Assembly (NCBI GenBank): GCA_017883205.1 | Contig: JADGNZ010000002.1 | Location: forward strand, 124,001-188,000 | Direction of reading: 5' to 3' | DNA: 64,000 nt | Source of the DNA: Thermoanaerobaculia bacterium | Lineage (GTDB): Bacteria; Acidobacteriota; Thermoanaerobaculia; Gp7-AA8 | The notes under the pieces: generated by a model | What the model was told of the DNA's origin: nothing | The model's database searches: none | What the model saw: the letters and a program-made list of their open reading frames with translations, nothing else | Shown: positions 3,385-63,058 of the stretch, in pieces | How the letters are laid out: the number at the start of each line of letters is the position of its first letter | How positions within the stretch are numbered: position 1 is the stretch's first letter | Program-made: the position numbers and the translations under genes

Positions 3385-4476
3385 ATGCGGAAGCTATGGA
3401 GAACGTTGTTCATACTGGTCGTGCTGGCGGGCGCGAGTGCGGGCGTGTATGCCTGGACGCGCAGCGGGAAGAAAGACGACGGCTTCAAGCAGGTCGAAGT
3501 CATCCAGGGATCGATCGTCGAAAAGGCGGTCGCTGTCGGGCAGATCCAGCCGCGGCAGAAGTTCGCGGTCAAATCGAAGATATCGGGCATCGTCAAACGT
3601 GCCCTGGCAGAGGTCGGCGATACGGTGCACGCCGGCGATCCGCTTTTCGAGATCGCGCCTGACCCGACGCCGATGGAAGTGACCGAGGTCGATCGGCAGG
3701 TCGAATCGGCCTCGGCGTCGTATCGAAAGGCGGAAGGCGACTACCAGCGCTCGCTGCAACTCTCGCGCTCCGGCGTGCTGCCGAAGTCCGACGTCGAAGC
3801 GAAGAAAGAATCGTATGACCTCGCGAGTGTGGCCATGACGAAGGCCGAGCAGAACCGCGACCTCACGCGCAAAGGGCGACTCACCGTCTCCGGAACCGAA
3901 TCGATCATCCGCGCACCGGCGGCCGGCACGATCCTCACGCGCACCGTCAATCCGGGTGATCCGATCGTTCCGCTCACCTCGTACCAGCCCGGTACCGAGA
4001 TGGCCACCGTCGCCGACATGCGCGATCTCATCTTCAAAGGAACGGTCGACGAGATCGATGTAGGCAAACTCTCCGTCGGCATGCAGACGCGCATCAAAGT
4101 CGGTGCGCTACCCACCGACGTCGTCACCGGCCACGTCTCGCGTATCGCTCCGCAAGCGCAGCAGAAAGAGGGAGCAACGCTCTTCGACGTCGAGGTCGAG
4201 CTCGAGCCGAGCAAAATCACCTTGCGCGCCGGCTACTCCGCAAACGCCGACGTCATCATCCGCGAGCACAAAGACGTGCTGGTCATCCCGGAGCGCCTCG
4301 TCACCTTCGGCGATGGCGGCAAGACCGCCAGCGTCGAAGTGCCGGGCAGCGATCCGAAGTCTCCGAAGAAGGTCGGCATCAAAACCGGCATCAGCGACGG
4401 CCTGAATGTCGAGGTGTTGTCCGGACTGAAGAAGGGCGAGAAGGTCGTGGAGAGACCGCCGAAGGAGATTTCCTAG
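3385..4476 (+). CDS. macA: Efflux periplasmic adaptor subunit (MacA/HlyD family)
   Basis: 363 residues. One N-terminal membrane anchor (about 5-25, TLFILVVLAGASAGVYAW) is followed by a lipoyl-like half (QPRQKFAVKSKISGIVKR), a helical hairpin (about 105-160, ESASASYRKAEGDYQRSLQL), the second lipoyl half with PAAGTILTRTVNPGDPI, a beta-barrel domain and a membrane-proximal domain. This is the layout of MacA-type adaptors joining an inner-membrane ABC transporter to an outer-membrane channel. It is the first gene of a four-gene set with two permeases and an ATPase. No TolC-like gene is present in the window. Confidence 0.9.
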   Translation: MRKLWRTLFILVVLAGASAGVYAWTRSGKKDDGFKQVEVIQGSIVEKAVAVGQIQPRQKFAVKSKISGIVKRALAEVGDTVHAGDPLFEIAPDPTPMEVTEVDRQVESASASYRKAEGDYQRSLQLSRSGVLPKSDVEAKKESYDLASVAMTKAEQNRDLTRKGRLTVSGTESIIRAPAAGTILTRTVNPGDPIVPLTSYQPGTEMATVADMRDLIFKGTVDEIDVGKLSVGMQTRIKVGALPTDVVTGHVSRIAPQAQQKEGATLFDVEVELEPSKITLRAGYSANADVIIREHKDVLVIPERLVTFGDGGKTASVEVPGSDPKSPKKVGIKTGISDGLNVEVLSGLKKGEKVVERPPKEIS

Positions 4477-4606: not shown

Positions 4607-5830
4607 ATGAAGGACGTCCTCAAACAGCTTGCCCGCGACCTCAAAGCTGAGAAGCTGCGAACCTTCCTCACGATCTTTGGCATCGTCTGGGGGACCGTCG
4701 CTATCAGCCTGATGCTCGCCTTCGGCACGGGGCTGCACACGCAGCTCATCAAGTCGACTGCCGGTCTCGGCGACCGCATCGTGATCGCCTGGCCGGGCCT
4801 CACCTCGATTCCCTTCGAGGGTCTCGGTAAGGGGCGGAAAATTCGCATCACCGACGACGACCTCACTACCGCGCGCGGCAATGTTCCGGGACTGAAAGCG
4901 CTCTCCGCCGAATACTCGAACAACCTTAAGGTCGAGTACGGGACGAAAACCCTCTCCGTCGATACCTCGGGGGTCGCGCCCGAGTTCGGATCGATGCGCA
5001 ATCTGATCCCCCAGGCCGGCGGACGCTTCATCGACGACATCGATCTCGCCGAGCAGCGGCGCACTGCCTTCATCGGCAACAAACTGGCCAAAGACATCTT
5101 CGGTGAGACTCCCGCGGTCGGAAAGACCATCACCGTCAACCAGTCGCCATTTCTCGTCGTCGGCGTTCTCGTGGAGAAGGATCAGGACTCGAGCTACAGC
5201 GGCCGTGACAACGAGAAGATGTTCATCCCGTCGACCACGTTTCGCGCCCTGAACGGCGACAAGTACGTCGACAACTTCGTCTTTCAAGCCGCGGCGTCGA
5301 CCGATACAAAAGCAGTGATCGAGAAGCTGCGCTCCGCACTCGGGGGCCGTCTCCGCTTCGACGCCAAGGACAAAGAAGCACTCTCGATGTGGGACACCAC
5401 CGAGCAGTTTCAGTTCTTCGACACGTTCATGCTGGCCTTCAACGCCTTCCTCGGCATCATCGGCGTGCTGACCCTCGTCGTCGGTGGCATCGGCGTGTCG
5501 AACATCATGAACGTCGTCGTCGAGGAGCGCACCCGCGAGATCGGCATCAAGATGGCCCTCGGCGCCAAGCAGCGCTGGATCCTCTCGCAATTCCTCTTCG
5601 AGACGATGCTGGTCACGTTCCTCGGCGGCGCGATCGGATTCGCCATCTCACTGACCGTCTGCGCCATCTTCCCGAAACTGGGCCTCGCCGAGTACGTCGG
5701 CAACCCCGTCGTTTCCCCACTCGTCGCCGCGCTGACATCACTCGCGCTCGGCCTGGTCGGATTGGTGGCCGGCTACTTCCCAGCGAGAGACGCAGCGAGG
5801 CTGGACCCGGTAGTCGCGATGAAACTCTGA
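4607..5830 (+). CDS. ABC transporter permease, MacB/FtsX type
   Basis: 407 residues. TM1 lies at about 18-42 (TFLTIFGIVWGTVAISLMLA). A long periplasmic MacB-type core domain follows to about residue 275, then three C-terminal TM segments, including GIIGVLTLVVGGIGVSNIMN and the conserved cytoplasmic loop EERTREIGIKMALGAKQRWI that contacts the ATPase. The ending is PARDAARLDPVVAMKL, typical of the family. Unlike E. coli MacB it has no fused ATPase; that is the separate gene at 7294. It is paired with a second homologous permease, suggesting a heterodimeric exporter of lipids, peptides or antibiotics. Confidence 0.92.
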   Translation: MKDVLKQLARDLKAEKLRTFLTIFGIVWGTVAISLMLAFGTGLHTQLIKSTAGLGDRIVIAWPGLTSIPFEGLGKGRKIRITDDDLTTARGNVPGLKALSAEYSNNLKVEYGTKTLSVDTSGVAPEFGSMRNLIPQAGGRFIDDIDLAEQRRTAFIGNKLAKDIFGETPAVGKTITVNQSPFLVVGVLVEKDQDSSYSGRDNEKMFIPSTTFRALNGDKYVDNFVFQAAASTDTKAVIEKLRSALGGRLRFDAKDKEALSMWDTTEQFQFFDTFMLAFNAFLGIIGVLTLVVGGIGVSNIMNVVVEERTREIGIKMALGAKQRWILSQFLFETMLVTFLGGAIGFAISLTVCAIFPKLGLAEYVGNPVVSPLVAALTSLALGLVGLVAGYFPARDAARLDPVVAMKL

Positions 5831-58434: not shown

Positions 58435-59070
58435 ATGGACCTGCACAACAGCCCCGCCTCTTCCACACAGCCGGTTTACTCGCCGGCGCCGGTTCCGGTC
58501 GAACAGTTCATCGACAGCATCCGCGAGCTGTCGATGGGCGTCATCACCAAGCAGAAGATCTACGACTTTCTGGCCACCTACCAGATCCGCGACGAGGACC
58601 TCGAGCGGTACAAGATGTGGCTGCCCGAGCGCCACACGCGCAACAAAGTCTTCCGCAACGACATGATCGAGGCGATGGTGATCTGCTGGCCCGCCGGCAC
58701 GATCACGCCCCTGCACACGCACAACGGCCAGCTCGGCTGGATGACGATGATCGAAGGGAAGCTCGTCGTCGAGAACTACAAGAAGGTCGACTGCAACCGC
58801 CCCGAGAACCAGCAGGTGGTGGGCATGGACTGCCTGGCCGGAGCGACCCGAATCGAGATGCAAGCCCTCGGCACGGAGCTTTGCGTCCCGGGCGGTCCGG
58901 TGAACACCGTCGACAAGACGCAGACGATCCACCGCATCAAGAATCTGGCCGAGTGGAACGAGCGCGCCGTCAGCCTCCACGTCTACTCGCGTCCCATCGA
59001 CTCGTGCGTCGTCTTCGACGTCGAAGGCGGTACGTGCTTCCGCCGCGAACTGAAGTACGACAACGAGTAA
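58435..59070 (+). CDS. Cysteine dioxygenase type I
   Basis: 211 residues, about 200 in the family. ITPLHTHNGQLGWMTMIEGK has the iron ligands HxH; the third His is in SLHVYSRPIDSCVVFD, with Tyr as in the family active site. Cupin beta-barrel. It oxidises cysteine to cysteine sulfinate. It sits upstream of a glyoxalase-like gene and matches the cysteine-making genes at 46.5-48.8 kb in function. Confidence 0.9.
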   Translation: MDLHNSPASSTQPVYSPAPVPVEQFIDSIRELSMGVITKQKIYDFLATYQIRDEDLERYKMWLPERHTRNKVFRNDMIEAMVICWPAGTITPLHTHNGQLGWMTMIEGKLVVENYKKVDCNRPENQQVVGMDCLAGATRIEMQALGTELCVPGGPVNTVDKTQTIHRIKNLAEWNERAVSLHVYSRPIDSCVVFDVEGGTCFRRELKYDNE

Positions 59071-59075
59071 TCCGC

Positions 59076-59444
59076 GTGCCCGCCATCGCCCTTCACCACG
59101 TTCAGGTGGCCATTCCGCGCGGCGAAGAAGATCGAGCCCGCGCTTTCTACGGCGGCGTGCTTGGCCTGACCGAGATCCCGAAGCCGGCTAACCAGCGCGA
59201 GCGCGGCGGACTTTGGTATCGCGTCGGAACGCTCGAGTTGCACATCGGCGTCGAGGACGATTTCCGCCCGGCGAAGAAAGCGCATCCTGCGCTTCTGGTC
59301 GACGACCTCGCGGCCGTCATCGCGCTCGCCGAGGCGGGAGGCCATCCGTCGCGGCCGGATACGCTCGTGATCGAAGGCTACGACCGCGTGTTCGTCAGCG
59401 ATCCGTTCGGCAATCGGATCGAGTTGCTGGAGAGATTGGGTTAG
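59076..59444 (+). CDS. Glyoxalase/VOC-family protein
   Basis: 122 residues from GTG 59076, 5 bp after the dioxygenase stop. HHVQVAIPRGEEDRARAFYG, LHIGVEDDFRPAKKAHPALL, and DPFGNRIELLE at the end are vicinal-oxygen-chelate signatures with metal ligands at His and Glu. Substrates vary in this family. It is probably co-transcribed with the cysteine dioxygenase. Confidence 0.85.
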   Translation: MPAIALHHVQVAIPRGEEDRARAFYGGVLGLTEIPKPANQRERGGLWYRVGTLELHIGVEDDFRPAKKAHPALLVDDLAAVIALAEAGGHPSRPDTLVIEGYDRVFVSDPFGNRIELLERLG

Positions 59445-59518
59445 CGATAGAGATCAAGTGGATTAGCCTGGATTAGCCCCGTGGGCCGCCGAATCCGTTG
59501 AATACGCTCAAAACGTGA

Positions 59519-59613
59519 GGTGTCATCCTGAGCCAGCCGGAGGCGCCCGCGCTACTCATCACTCTCGCACTGACTCTCCCTCGGCGCCGCAGGACGGCGA
59601 AGGATCTCAAAAT
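59519..59613. repeat. Dispersed TCATCCTGAG palindrome, left copy
   Basis: TGTCATCCTGAGCCAGCCGG at the start, CGGCGCCGCAGGACGGCGAA at the end, then GGATCT. A related copy in inverted orientation lies at 61333-61456, so the two bracket the 516-residue gene. Confidence 0.8.
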
Positions 59614-59722
59614 GCGAAGATCTCGTTCGAGCGTCTTTGATCACGATCGCTCGCGCTGGACGAACACGATCTGCGAAGTTTGAACTACTACTTCCGAAAA
59701 ACGTCGAGCGGCGCGCCGTTTT

Positions 59723-61273
59723 TTACGCGGCTTTAGCGAGAAGTTGGGTGACGTCGGCGTTTCTCGTAGCGAAGATCGCAGCGATGAGTGTTTGACCTTC
59801 TTCCGTGAGTCGGTAGCGCGTTGTTTTCTGGATTTTCTGGACCAGGCCGTGAGCGCGAAGAATGCGTATCTGTCTGCTGACCTTGGCGGCGAGGCGTCGT
59901 TGCTCGATTGCGGAGTCGCCACCGGCAGGGTAGAGCCGGCCGCGGATGTCGCGATTGCGAAAGCCGGAGATTGCGAACTCACCTCGAGCGACGATGTCGA
60001 GCAGAGCAAGATCGTTGGAGTCGGCCAGACGGAGAGCACGAACGCGTCGGCCTTTGCCGGTCACAGGTTGGGAGACGGTATCGAAGATCTTGGAGCATGG
60101 CGTGGTATCGCCCGTTGCGGAGAGAGCATTGAAGTAGGTGTGATTGGCTCGTTGTGAGACCTCGGCCCGGCGATAGAGATCGGCCACTCCCTTGCGCATA
60201 GGGAGCCACTGACGTTTGCCTTTGGGGTGGTTCTGAAGAGGCCGGAAGACCTTGAAGTCCGTGGGGTCCCCGATGGTCGTTTCCACGCGGAGGACACTGC
60301 CGGCTTTGTCGTACATCTTGATGGAGTTGCCGCGTAGCCAGTGTTTGACGCGAACCCCTTCGGCGCGGTCTTTGAAGCTGGTGACGATCTCTCCCGTAAA
60401 GTTCCCCGGAGCTTTCGGAGCAAGGAACCTCATCACGTCGGGGCTTTTCAAAGCGAGCATGCCGTAGCGGACAAGCGGAGGATAGACATCGGCCAGACTG
60501 CGTGGATCTTGGAACATGACATCGGTCGCCAACTCGGTTTGGTAGCCCGTCCAGTAGTAGTCCATGGGTGAGCAGCGGAAGATTGCTTGATGCTGTGGGT
60601 TGATGGAGCGGGCGATGGCGTTGAGCGCCCGAGGCCAGTCGGTGCGGAGTTGATCGTCCATCAGGCGCTGGGCCAGCTTAGGGTTTCCAAGCCAGGTGAA
60701 GCAGTTGTCCGCGCGCTTGAAGTTGTCCTGGCCTTTGCGCAACAACTGGCGGGCAAGCCACTCCCGTCCGTTGATGCAGATCTGAATCGTGAACGGGAAC
60801 CAGGTCTGGATGCGGGCGTTCATGAAACCGAACCGAGGATCAAGCCAGTAGTGATAGAGATGAAGACACTTGCTCGGGTGGAGCCGCAATCCCCTTTCGG
60901 CGAGGTTGGCCGAACGCTGATACTCGAATGTCATGCAGGGCTCGATAGCTTTGAACACACAGATGAGCCCTTGCTCAACAGGGTTCTTGGCCAGGATCTC
61001 GCGTGCCCGCTTTTGCTTGTCGTCGCCTGATTGGAGGTACTCGATCGGCCGGTTCTTCCGATGCGCCTCTGCCATCGAGCCCTCCTTGAGTTGTTCGGTC
61101 GTGGCAAGAGCGAACTTCTTGAAGTCGAGCAGCCTCACCTTCGCGTCCATCAGCAGGAAGTGCATGCCGTCGTGCCGCATCAGACGCTGCAAGATCCCGT
61201 GAAAGACGACCCGGTCGAATCCAGACAGCACACCAGTGACGAGCGAGCGATAGCGTGATAGAAACTTCTCCAC
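59723..61273 (-). CDS. Unclassified 516-residue protein, candidate mobile gene
   Basis: 516 residues. It begins MEKFLSRYRSLVTGVLSGFD and RVVFHGILQRL. The middle has LYHYWLDPRFGFMNARIQTW, FPFTIQICINGREWLARQLL, MDYYWTGYQTELATDVMF and VKHWLRGNSIKMYDK, and the C-terminus is a winged-helix-like segment (LAAKVSRQIRILRAHGLVQK). I recall proteins like this as a widespread multi-copy 'hypothetical' family in bacterial genomes, but it is not a named transposase that I can confirm. The bracketing inverted repeats and stand-alone position suggest mobility; no terminal inverted repeats of its own were found. The adjacent gap has array 4. Confidence 0.6.
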   Translation of the reverse strand: MEKFLSRYRSLVTGVLSGFDRVVFHGILQRLMRHDGMHFLLMDAKVRLLDFKKFALATTEQLKEGSMAEAHRKNRPIEYLQSGDDKQKRAREILAKNPVEQGLICVFKAIEPCMTFEYQRSANLAERGLRLHPSKCLHLYHYWLDPRFGFMNARIQTWFPFTIQICINGREWLARQLLRKGQDNFKRADNCFTWLGNPKLAQRLMDDQLRTDWPRALNAIARSINPQHQAIFRCSPMDYYWTGYQTELATDVMFQDPRSLADVYPPLVRYGMLALKSPDVMRFLAPKAPGNFTGEIVTSFKDRAEGVRVKHWLRGNSIKMYDKAGSVLRVETTIGDPTDFKVFRPLQNHPKGKRQWLPMRKGVADLYRRAEVSQRANHTYFNALSATGDTTPCSKIFDTVSQPVTGKGRRVRALRLADSNDLALLDIVARGEFAISGFRNRDIRGRLYPAGGDSAIEQRRLAAKVSRQIRILRAHGLVQKIQKTTRYRLTEEGQTLIAAIFATRNADVTQLLAKAA

Positions 61274-61332
61274 GGCGTCCTCCTTTTTGGGGCGAAAGGG
61301 TTGTTTGTCACAGCCTTTCTACCCGAAGAGCG

Positions 61333-61456
61333 ACGCCGTTTCATCTTGGGTTGCGGGCGCAGCCCGCGCTAGGATCCTTCGACGTCCTGCGCCGCCGAGC
61401 ACGCACTGCGCAAACATCGCGATTCGAGCGGGCGGCTCCGGCAGCCTCAGGATGAC
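61333..61456. repeat. Dispersed TCATCCTGAG palindrome, right (inverted) copy
   Basis: GGATCCTTCGACGTCCTGCG and GCCGCC at the left, GGCTCCGGCAGCCTCAGGAT followed by GACACC at the right. The ends are the reverse complements of the left copy ends. The spacer sequences differ. Confidence 0.8.
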
Positions 61457-61546
61457 ACCAACTCGATCGGACAGTCGGGATAACATCACACGGAAAGCAC
61501 CAATCGTGGAATGATTCTGCGTCGTTCCACCAAATTTGGCATCAAG

Positions 61547-61756
61547 AACATCGAAATCGTCGTTGACATCCAGATTCTCGACGTTGACATCGAGACCTCT
61601 CGATAAAGATCTCCAGATTCTCGATAAAGATCTCCAGATTCTGGATGAAGATCTCCAGATTCTCGACGTTAACATCCAGATTCTGGATGAAGATATCTAG
61701 ATTCTCAGACGTTGACATCCAGATTCTGGATGAAGATATCTAGATCGACAACTAAA
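61547..61756. repeat. 21-bp tandem array 4 (about 9-10 units)
   Basis: From 61565 units are 21, 22, 21, 21, 21, 21, 22 and 21 bp, then a partial. Heads (GACATCCAGATT, GATCTCCAGATT, AACATCCAGATT, GATATCTAGATT) are combined with tails (CTCGACGTT, CTGGATGAA, CTCGATAAA) in different ways. An 18-bp degenerate unit precedes at 61547 (AACATCGAAATCGTCGTT). It is AT-richer than its surroundings. It lies 120 bp upstream of kbl. Confidence 0.92.
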
Positions 61757-61873
61757 ATTTTGGATATCTCGTCCCCGGTTGTGGCCGTCGCGGCAAGCCA
61801 GGCGGCACCGAAGCCATCCACCACCCCGCTGATACAATCCGCCGCCGCAATTCCAACCCGCCGAGGTGACGCA

Positions 61874-63058
61874 ATGTCGCTGATGTCCACGCTGCAAACC
61901 GAGCTCGATCAGATGGCTGCCGCAGGCACGCTCAAGCGCGAGCTGCTGATGAAATCGCCGCAGGGCCCGATCGTCGACGTCGAAGGATTCGGCGAAGTCA
62001 TCATGCTCACCTCCAACAACTACCTCGGCCTGGCCAACCATCCTGCGATCGGCGAAGCGGCCGCGAAAGCGGAGCACGACTACGGCTACGGCCTGGCCTC
62101 GGTGCGCTTCATCTGCGGCACGCAGACGATTCACCGCCAGCTCGAACAGCGCATCGCCGCGTTCTTCGGGACGGAAGACACGATCCTCTACGGCTCCTGC
62201 TGGAACGCGAACGAAGGACTTTTTCAGACCATCGCGCAGGAGCAGGACGCGATCATCTCCGACGAGCTCAATCACGCCTCGATCATCGACGGCGTGCGCC
62301 TGGCGAAGGCGAAGAAGGAGCGCTACAAGAACCGCGACATGGCCGACCTGCGCCGCGCGCTCGAAGCGACGCGCGATTCGCGCAACAAACTGATTATGAC
62401 CGACGGCGTCTTTTCGATGGAAGGCTCGCTGGCGCCGCTGCCGGAGATGGCCGCGCTGGCCGAGGAGTACGACGCATTCCTCGTCGTCGATGACTCCCAC
62501 GGTACAGGCGTCCTCGGCAAGACAGGCCGCGGAACGGCCGAGGAGCTGGGCGTGCTCGACAAGATCCACGCGCACACTTCGACCCTCGGCAAAGCGCTTG
62601 GCGGATCGCACGGCGGATTCACGACCGGGCCGAAAACGTTGGTCGACTATCTGCGCCAGAAGTCGCGGCCGTACCTTTTCTCGAACACGCTGCCGCCGGC
62701 GGTGGTCATGGGATCGCTGGCCGCGCTCGATCTACTTGAAAACGATCCCAGCTTCGTGACGCGCCTGCGCGAGAACACGACCTACTTTCGCCAGCAACTC
62801 ACGGCAAAGGGTGTGGCCGTGCGCGAAGGAATCCATCCCATCGTCCCGATCATCATCGGCGACACTGCCAAAGCGATCGCCATCTCAGCCGAGCTGTTGA
62901 AGCGCGGCGTCTACGTCTCCGGCTTCGGCTTCCCGGTCGTGCCTCAAGGCGCGGCGCGCCTGCGCTGCCAGATCAGCGCCGCGCACACACGCGAGCACCT
63001 CGACCGGGCCATCGAGGCGATCGTTGAGGTGGGGCGGAAGTTCGAAGTGGTGGGGTGA
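61874..63058 (+). CDS. kbl: Glycine C-acetyltransferase (2-amino-3-ketobutyrate CoA ligase)
   Basis: 394 residues from ATG 61874 with GAGGTGA 5 bp upstream; a longer frame runs in the array and is rejected. LTSNNYLGLANHP, SVRFICGTQTIHRQLEQRIA, YGSCWNANEGLFQ and DELNHASIIDG, then the PLP Lys in TSTLGKALGGSHGGFT and the SAAHTREHLDRAIEAI end, are alpha-oxoamine synthase signatures; VRFICGT and length favour Kbl over BioF. It works with threonine dehydrogenase to make glycine and acetyl-CoA. No tdh is seen here. Confidence 0.9.
   Translation: MSLMSTLQTELDQMAAAGTLKRELLMKSPQGPIVDVEGFGEVIMLTSNNYLGLANHPAIGEAAAKAEHDYGYGLASVRFICGTQTIHRQLEQRIAAFFGTEDTILYGSCWNANEGLFQTIAQEQDAIISDELNHASIIDGVRLAKAKKERYKNRDMADLRRALEATRDSRNKLIMTDGVFSMEGSLAPLPEMAALAEEYDAFLVVDDSHGTGVLGKTGRGTAEELGVLDKIHAHTSTLGKALGGSHGGFTTGPKTLVDYLRQKSRPYLFSNTLPPAVVMGSLAALDLLENDPSFVTRLRENTTYFRQQLTAKGVAVREGIHPIVPIIIGDTAKAIAISAELLKRGVYVSGFGFPVVPQGAARLRCQISAAHTREHLDRAIEAIVEVGRKFEVVG

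Follow-up and report, generated by a model that had tools for sequence, protein, structure and literature searches.

Bacterial transposases rely on a handful of chemistries, namely those of the DDE and DEDD enzymes, the tyrosine and serine recombinases, the HUH enzymes and the Cas1-like enzymes. In IS608 and the IS200/IS605 family as a whole, the recognized bases lie 5′ of the cut, and Helitrons end in CTRR. To our knowledge, Rep_trans-like nickases with the TBP fold have so far been known from replication and conjugation alone. The Rep_trans initiators and MOBT relaxases (PF02486: RepD, RepSTK1 and NicK) share a TBP-like catalytic fold and a hairpin substrate; they serve plasmid and phage replication and conjugation, are not known as transposases and carry no MarR-type winged helix. 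The Rep_trans tyrosine is located on a strand, in R-x-Y-x-K (PMC4797284). The motifs of the group are an N′ Asp, RxD (motif I), YxKxxE (III) and [WL]xRxE (IV); the metal ligands of RepD are D46, D142 and E214, and the described residues include the R212-x-E214 motif of RepD, D46 of RepDE and D9 of RepSTK1 (PMC4797284; PMC5714925). The Rep-Arvir initiators of archaeal viruses and plasmids (RepSNJ2; DUF7845, PF25227) consist of a TBP-fold domain and a MarR-like winged helix, and have an acid, acid, Tyr and Glu at positions 25, 207, 283 and 303, of which Y283, E25 and E303 are essential; the fold search of RepSNJ2 also matched the protein A0A2N9QVX7 (PMC13107129).

Here, we describe a mobile element in a window of 64,000 nt, the window being the whole stretch of DNA that was analysed. 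We estimate at roughly three in four the probability that the element represents a new single-gene insertion sequence (IS) family, whose 516-aa transposase is predicted to be a TBP-fold tyrosine nickase that binds DNA through a C-terminal winged helix, related to Rep_trans and Rep-Arvir in fold and active-site layout.

The 516-residue gene that an earlier note on this DNA had described was recovered as an ORF with a GTG start behind AGGAGG (Table 1), and the aromatic-rich motifs quoted there, including YYWTGYQTE, were found in its translation. Searches of Pfam, NCBIfam, PHROGs and PDB sequences with the 516-aa protein returned weak helix-turn-helix (HTH) matches to the C-terminus and nothing else informative, and no transposase family of Pfam, NCBIfam or PHROGs was matched. 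Family searches of 29 members against Pfam and NCBIfam did not match any DDE, serine or tyrosine recombinase profile, in agreement with the earlier reading that the protein belongs to none of these types; a single member gave one weak Phage_int_M match (E 0.084). PF01797 (Y1_Tnp) and PF25227 (Rep-Arvir) were absent among the Pfam families listed for the 29 members, and PF02486 (Rep_trans) was absent among the families listed for members, with none in the window’s genome or in genome G061. An HUH fold was rejected, as PF01797 was unmatched and the 29-member alignment contains no invariant histidine. PADLOC gave winged-helix matches only and did not support a defence function, and an Rfam search over 59000–62000 matched no structured RNA of the bridge or omega type.

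Table 1. Coordinates of the element, its target and its predicted protein features in the window
Feature	Position	Strand	Basis or remark
Target, left part of the interrupted palindromic TCATCCTGAG repeat	59520–59683		Joined to 61373–61458, gives a gap-free junction alignment
Target, right part of the interrupted TCATCCTGAG repeat	61373–61458		Same paralog alignment as the left part
Whole mobile element, 1,689 bp	59684–61372	minus	Removal restores the uninterrupted repeat (three paralogs); ends as in relatives
Left end: CTAGC, hairpin GCGGGC-TGC-GCCCGC (61353–61367), then AACC	61349–61372	minus	
Right end GGAAGTAGTAGT, then target bases TCA on the gene strand	59684–59695	minus	GTAGT-type ends in relatives
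Ribosome-binding site AGGAGG of the 516-aa gene	about 61279–61284	minus	
Putative transposase gene, 516 aa, stop included	59723–61273	minus	GTG start; 53 related loci
Predicted TBP-fold catalytic domain, residues 1–388	60110–61273	minus	AlphaFold2 pLDDT 92.4, pTM 0.90
MarR/ArsR-like winged helix, residues 390–516	59726–60106	minus	Z 8–9 to MepR, CzrA and others
Candidate for the first metal ligand, D20	61214–61216	minus	No variation in alignment A1; at least 90% conserved in A3
Proposed catalytic tyrosine motif K319-M-Y321-D-K323	60305–60319	minus	K319 and Y321 invariant
Proposed metal-site motif R329-V-E331	60281–60289	minus	Invariant

The gene had been thought to be bracketed by inverted, dispersed TCATCCTGAG repeats. 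Exact inverted copies of TCATCCTGAG do occur at 59523 and 61446, exactly two in the window (0.18 expected), as part of longer inverted arms (39 nt, 85%; 27 nt, 93%), and the repeat is dispersed, with 38 exact copies of GTGTCATCCTGAG in the genome, mostly as inverted pairs approximately 200 bp apart that lack the 516-aa gene. When the flanks in the window were joined (GCGAAGTTTGA|GATCC on the plus strand), three palindromic repeats of the same genome (G000:C55, C97 and C2:40870-41121) matched at 87–94%, with an ungapped junction. The element is therefore the 1,689 bp delimited in Table 1. One arm of a TCATCCTGAG palindrome received the insertion, the uninterrupted copies represent the empty site, and the two supposed brackets belong to one intergenic palindromic repeat that the element has split into a left and a right part.

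That the TCATCCTGAG repeats themselves bound a mobile unit was suggested by the inverted copies on both sides of the gene. However, the same repeats exist as inverted pairs without the gene and run uninterrupted through the insertion point, and they are missing from the second copy in this genome (on contig C66) and from the relatives, the true ends being internal to the repeats in the window; we find such a unit hardly credible, and the repeats were rejected as element ends. Palindromic TCATCCTGAG repeats of approximately 110–215 bp, often approximately 207 bp, were seen on contigs C16, C19, C23, C49, C97, C100 and C102 of G000, among others. A REP/RAYT-type origin is plausible for them, because the host genome has 15 Y1_Tnp (HUH) matches.

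On the gene strand, the element reads CTAGCGCGGGC-TGC-GCCCGCAACCC ... GGAAGTAGTAGT, with a right end of ...GTAGTAGT and a hairpin 5 nt inside the left end. An alignment of 23 left ends drawn from several phyla shows the hairpin to be conserved, with covariation across the 4 bp of its stem core (0.395, compared with at most 0.087 in slid controls; 11 double-change cells); the pairs are G-C/C-G, C-G/U-A and G-C/A-U, and 97.8% of cells are paired. As single-stranded DNA, the left-end hairpin folds at −7.6 kcal/mol. The arrangement NYA-nn-hairpin-AACC is found upstream of the gene in relatives from Planctomycetota, Acidobacteriota, Deltaproteobacteria, Myxococcales, Firmicutes, Bacteroidetes and Ignavibacteria, and a GTAGT-type right end is found downstream of the gene in most relatives, as well as in short derivatives. 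Hairpins at the right end were overall not above shuffles (mean z −0.4), and inverted termini are absent from the element. Beyond the two copies, the genome has one further match to one pattern of the left-end hairpin (C57:61448), which was rejected as a left end; the expected start is absent and it looks like chance.

The insertion rule is equally regular. Of 35 left ends, 34 are preceded by C, the lone exception adjoining the right end of another copy, and the right flank begins with NYA in 33 of the 35. The first triplet of the element differs from the flanking triplet in the window (CTA and TCA) and at loci L044 and L049 (CCA and ACG at both), so the cut is placed at C|NYA with no duplication, a frame that is based for the window on the uninterrupted paralogs and for L044 and L049 on a natural repeat sequence inferred from the flanks. 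Where both triplets are equal, as in Lachnospiraceae bacterium A4 (CTAA, ATA), the exact frame is ambiguous. A target-site duplication was rejected for these three insertions with unequal triplets, and shared bases elsewhere are ambiguous.

With exact ends, empty sites and a single gene, the element qualifies as an insertion sequence. Like the IS200/IS605 (Y1 HUH) elements, it has no terminal inverted repeats, no target duplication, a hairpin near an end (supported here for the left end alone), a short specific target and short non-autonomous derivatives. However, IS200/IS605 transposases are small HUH enzymes, whereas the protein described here has a predicted TBP-like fold and no invariant histidine, and the bases recognized at C|NYA lie 3′ of the cut, the mirror of IS200/IS605. 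The rolling-circle elements IS91 and Helitrons also share a replication-initiator-like enzyme, one terminal hairpin and the lack of duplication, but their enzymes are of the HUH type with other motifs, accompanied in Helitrons by a helicase. On its opposite strand, this hairpin end runs hairpin-GCTRN, which recalls the CTRR terminus of Helitrons.

The proposal that the gene is mobile was borne out by multiple copies, different flanks and empty sites. In this genome of 6.37 Mb and 105 contigs, the C66 copy shows 46–47% identity and lies at an unrelated site on another contig, in a different palindromic repeat (CACAGAGGC|ACAGAGGACACAG); two genomes of the same genus have the genes adjoining this insertion and lack the element. 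Lachnospiraceae bacterium A4 has 21 matches, and five copies of one subfamily there are 99.2–99.8% identical over approximately 1.65 kb, then diverge abruptly, at unrelated sites. The L144 site, with one CCTAA, has an element-free counterpart in another genome that is identical at 405 of 405 bases, and the L143 site has an empty counterpart at 93%. Single-copy vertical inheritance with conserved flanks, against which the earlier note had set its claim, is contradicted by the two divergent copies here, by the 21 matches in A4, by the differing flanks and by the empty sites. The window protein is closer to proteins from other phyla (57–66%) than to its own paralog, which is consistent with horizontal movement; because several of the related sequences come from metagenome bins, the hosts given for them could be incorrect.

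The repeat around the C66 copy (L093; approximately 3390–3410 and 5119–5170) is a CACAGAGGACACAGAG palindrome with dispersed copies in related genomes. Insertions into such CCACAGAG/CCACGGAT repeats are also seen for many relatives, as would be expected if palindromes between genes were favoured, or at least tolerated, as targets. Two Ignavibacteria copies (L159 and L160, genome G072) lie inside tandem TAATACC repeats. Diverged or rearranged family members in A4, with ORFs of 591–668 aa, were seen at L088 (1654–3660) and G061:C1:677459 and are perhaps decayed or repurposed copies.

Homologues are present on plasmids of Paraburkholderia, Caballeronia, Rhodococcus and Mycobacterium, where they lie within large plasmids and are annotated as hypothetical proteins or ArsR-family regulators. 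One of them, on a Paraburkholderia plasmid (L226, 3989–5503), is labelled ArsR family transcriptional regulator, likely a misannotation arising from the winged helix. The regulator annotation would suit a passenger gene, perhaps encoding a winged-helix regulator, in elements mobilized by a different enzyme, for which the HUH Y1 transposases of the host would be candidates; the 15 Y1_Tnp matches in the host genome and the movement of short derivatives without the gene point the same way. Against this, the gene is the sole gene of elements of 1.6–2.0 kb, between the same ends each time across phyla, and a passenger regulator would not be expected to possess a 388-residue domain in which more than 25 positions are invariant. 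We consider a passenger role quite improbable, and the encoded protein is probably the enzyme that moves the element.

The element could also be a small replicon that integrates, encoding a replication initiator and inserting as a by-product. Rep-Arvir, with the same domain order, replicates viruses and plasmids (PMC13107129), and offers a precedent. However, such a replicon fits poorly with one-gene elements of this size, with plasmid copies situated within larger plasmids, and with the absence of any match in phage records and of any close relative in IMG/VR, which also gave no indication of a phage origin. This makes an integrating replicon very improbable, and an insertion sequence remains the preferred reading.

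Short non-autonomous derivatives of the element were found in the Deltaproteobacteria genome of locus L042 (G067). The left-end hairpin pattern occurs 177 times in this genome, compared with two occurrences of a control pattern, and there are three gene matches (copies or remnants), one of them full length. A TAGTAG right end lies within 400 bases in 14 of the 34 copies examined, ten of the 14 being elements of 137–179 bp, and C precedes 31 of the 34 (C content 0.36). At least one derivative has stretches at both ends that are identical to the full element of the same genome. These counts and shared ends indicate that short derivatives are mobilized in trans, in a pattern that resembles REP/RAYT amplification. 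REP sequences and TnpA-REP (RAYT) likewise combine many short palindromic non-autonomous copies with few enzyme genes; RAYT, however, is an HUH enzyme that is not flanked by movable ends, whereas here the full-length element is itself mobile. The derivatives in G067 (e.g. L253 and L272) have differing inner hairpins, some are arranged head to tail, and in one case the insertion point coincides precisely with the right end of another derivative.

The protein was modelled with AlphaFold2 (whole-protein pLDDT 88.6). An RNase H fold, for which the earlier note had proposed structure prediction as a check, was not obtained, the predicted fold being TBP-like. In a second-look structure alignment of the predicted model, TBPs came first (Z up to 8.1), directly followed by the Rep_trans structures 4cwe, 4cwc and 4cij (Z 6.8–6.9, 177–189 residues aligned); these are all three of the listed solved Rep_trans structures. 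It should be noted that a fold Z of 7–8 is middling, and that plain Foldseek against the PDB gave no E below 0.018. A viral fold library also returned TBPs, including A0A2N9QVX7, the same viral TBP that the Rep-Arvir fold search had matched. The winged-helix-like C-terminus proposed earlier is supported by the weak HTH sequence matches and by fold matches to MarR/ArsR proteins.

K319, Y321, R329 and E331 are invariant in the 29-, 34- and 8-member alignments and, together with E247, are kept down to 22% identity. According to the prediction, the first half carries D20, the proposed counterpart of D46 of RepDE and D9 of RepSTK1, on its first strand; the second half has E247 on its own first strand, and two adjacent strands of this half bear K319-x-Y321-x-K323 and R329-x-E331, the latter comparable to R212-x-E214 of RepD. 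The alignment start offsets to 4cwe and 4cij both point to D20, provided that the first strand is gapless. The family would share with Rep_trans/MOBT the R/K-x-Y-x-K and R-x-E motifs and, on the first strand, an acidic residue near the N-terminus, a match of active sites that is based on alignment ranges and motif order. D20, YxK and RxE are present, but neither the RxD of motif I nor the Glu of motif III was seen, and the Tyr-to-Glu spacing is 10, compared with 23 in RepDE. Because these two motif elements are unseen and D251 is not invariant (8-member alignment), the assignment of E247 as second metal ligand is uncertain. There is no detectable sequence similarity to Rep_trans/MOBT, and a profile comparison with five Rep_trans reference sequences was negative.

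The likeness to Rep-Arvir extends to domain order, as the predicted models also have a TBP-fold domain followed by a MarR-like winged helix, and the order and spacing of the acid, acid, Tyr and Glu are similar (25/207/283/303 in Rep-Arvir, 20/247/321/331 here). Rep-Arvir, however, is an archaeal replication initiator with an extra C-terminal domain, whereas this family is a bacterial one-gene IS that is unmatched by PF25227.

Alternatively, the protein could be a new IS transposase of different chemistry, in which the TBP-like fold serves to bind DNA and a nuclease site is made up of K86, E111, Y140, Y142 and E247. These residues are as invariant as Y321, TBP is a DNA-binding fold without catalysis, and the fold scores are middling, all of which would be compatible with such an enzyme. 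D20, K-x-Y-x-K and R-x-E nevertheless follow the same order as the Rep_trans catalytic residues, and the three solved Rep_trans structures rank next after the TBPs; we regard the different chemistry as rather unlikely and favour the tyrosine nickase. The earlier suggestion of a new recombinase or DNA-binding enzyme holds insofar as a new nucleic-acid enzyme is the best reading.

A tyrosine nickase of this kind would recognize the left-end hairpin and cut a single strand immediately 5′ of NYA at three places, the left end, the right junction and the target C|NYA, with Y321 as the candidate nucleophile holding the 5′ phosphate of NYA. The 3′-OH ends would then be passed to the phosphotyrosine links, freeing the element as a single-stranded circle in which its 3′ end is joined to its own 5′ NYA. 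On insertion between C and NYA, the target C would be joined to the NYA of the element, and the 3′ end of the element to the target NYA. NYA would form the 5′-phosphate side of every cut, owned by the element at the left end and by the host at the right end and target. An enzyme that holds 5′-NYA ends would therefore leave neither inverted termini nor duplications. Excision could proceed either by peel-and-paste or by rolling-circle copying.

No transposase of TBP-like fold was found in the open PMC literature. It is probable, if somewhat less so than the family assignment itself, that we are dealing with a new major transposase class: a TBP-fold, Rep_trans-like tyrosine nickase that acts as an IS transposase in many bacterial phyla, follows a C|NYA rule of its own on single strands and has given rise to its own REP-like families of non-autonomous repeats. 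If so, the TBP-fold nickase would add one more transposase chemistry, and a second great family of rolling-circle nickases would, like HUH, serve replication, transfer and transposition. Genes annotated as ‘hypothetical’ or ArsR in many phyla would become testable transposases, an enzyme domain order so far known from archaeal initiators would have a bacterial instance, and some short palindromic repeats unexplained by HUH enzymes would have an origin.

Finally, a separate repeat array was seen close to the element. Six imperfect 38-nt units, GATAAAGATCTCCAGATTCT-like and spaced by 21 or 43 nt, occupy 61559–61745 of the window, just upstream of a 2-amino-3-ketobutyrate CoA ligase-like gene.
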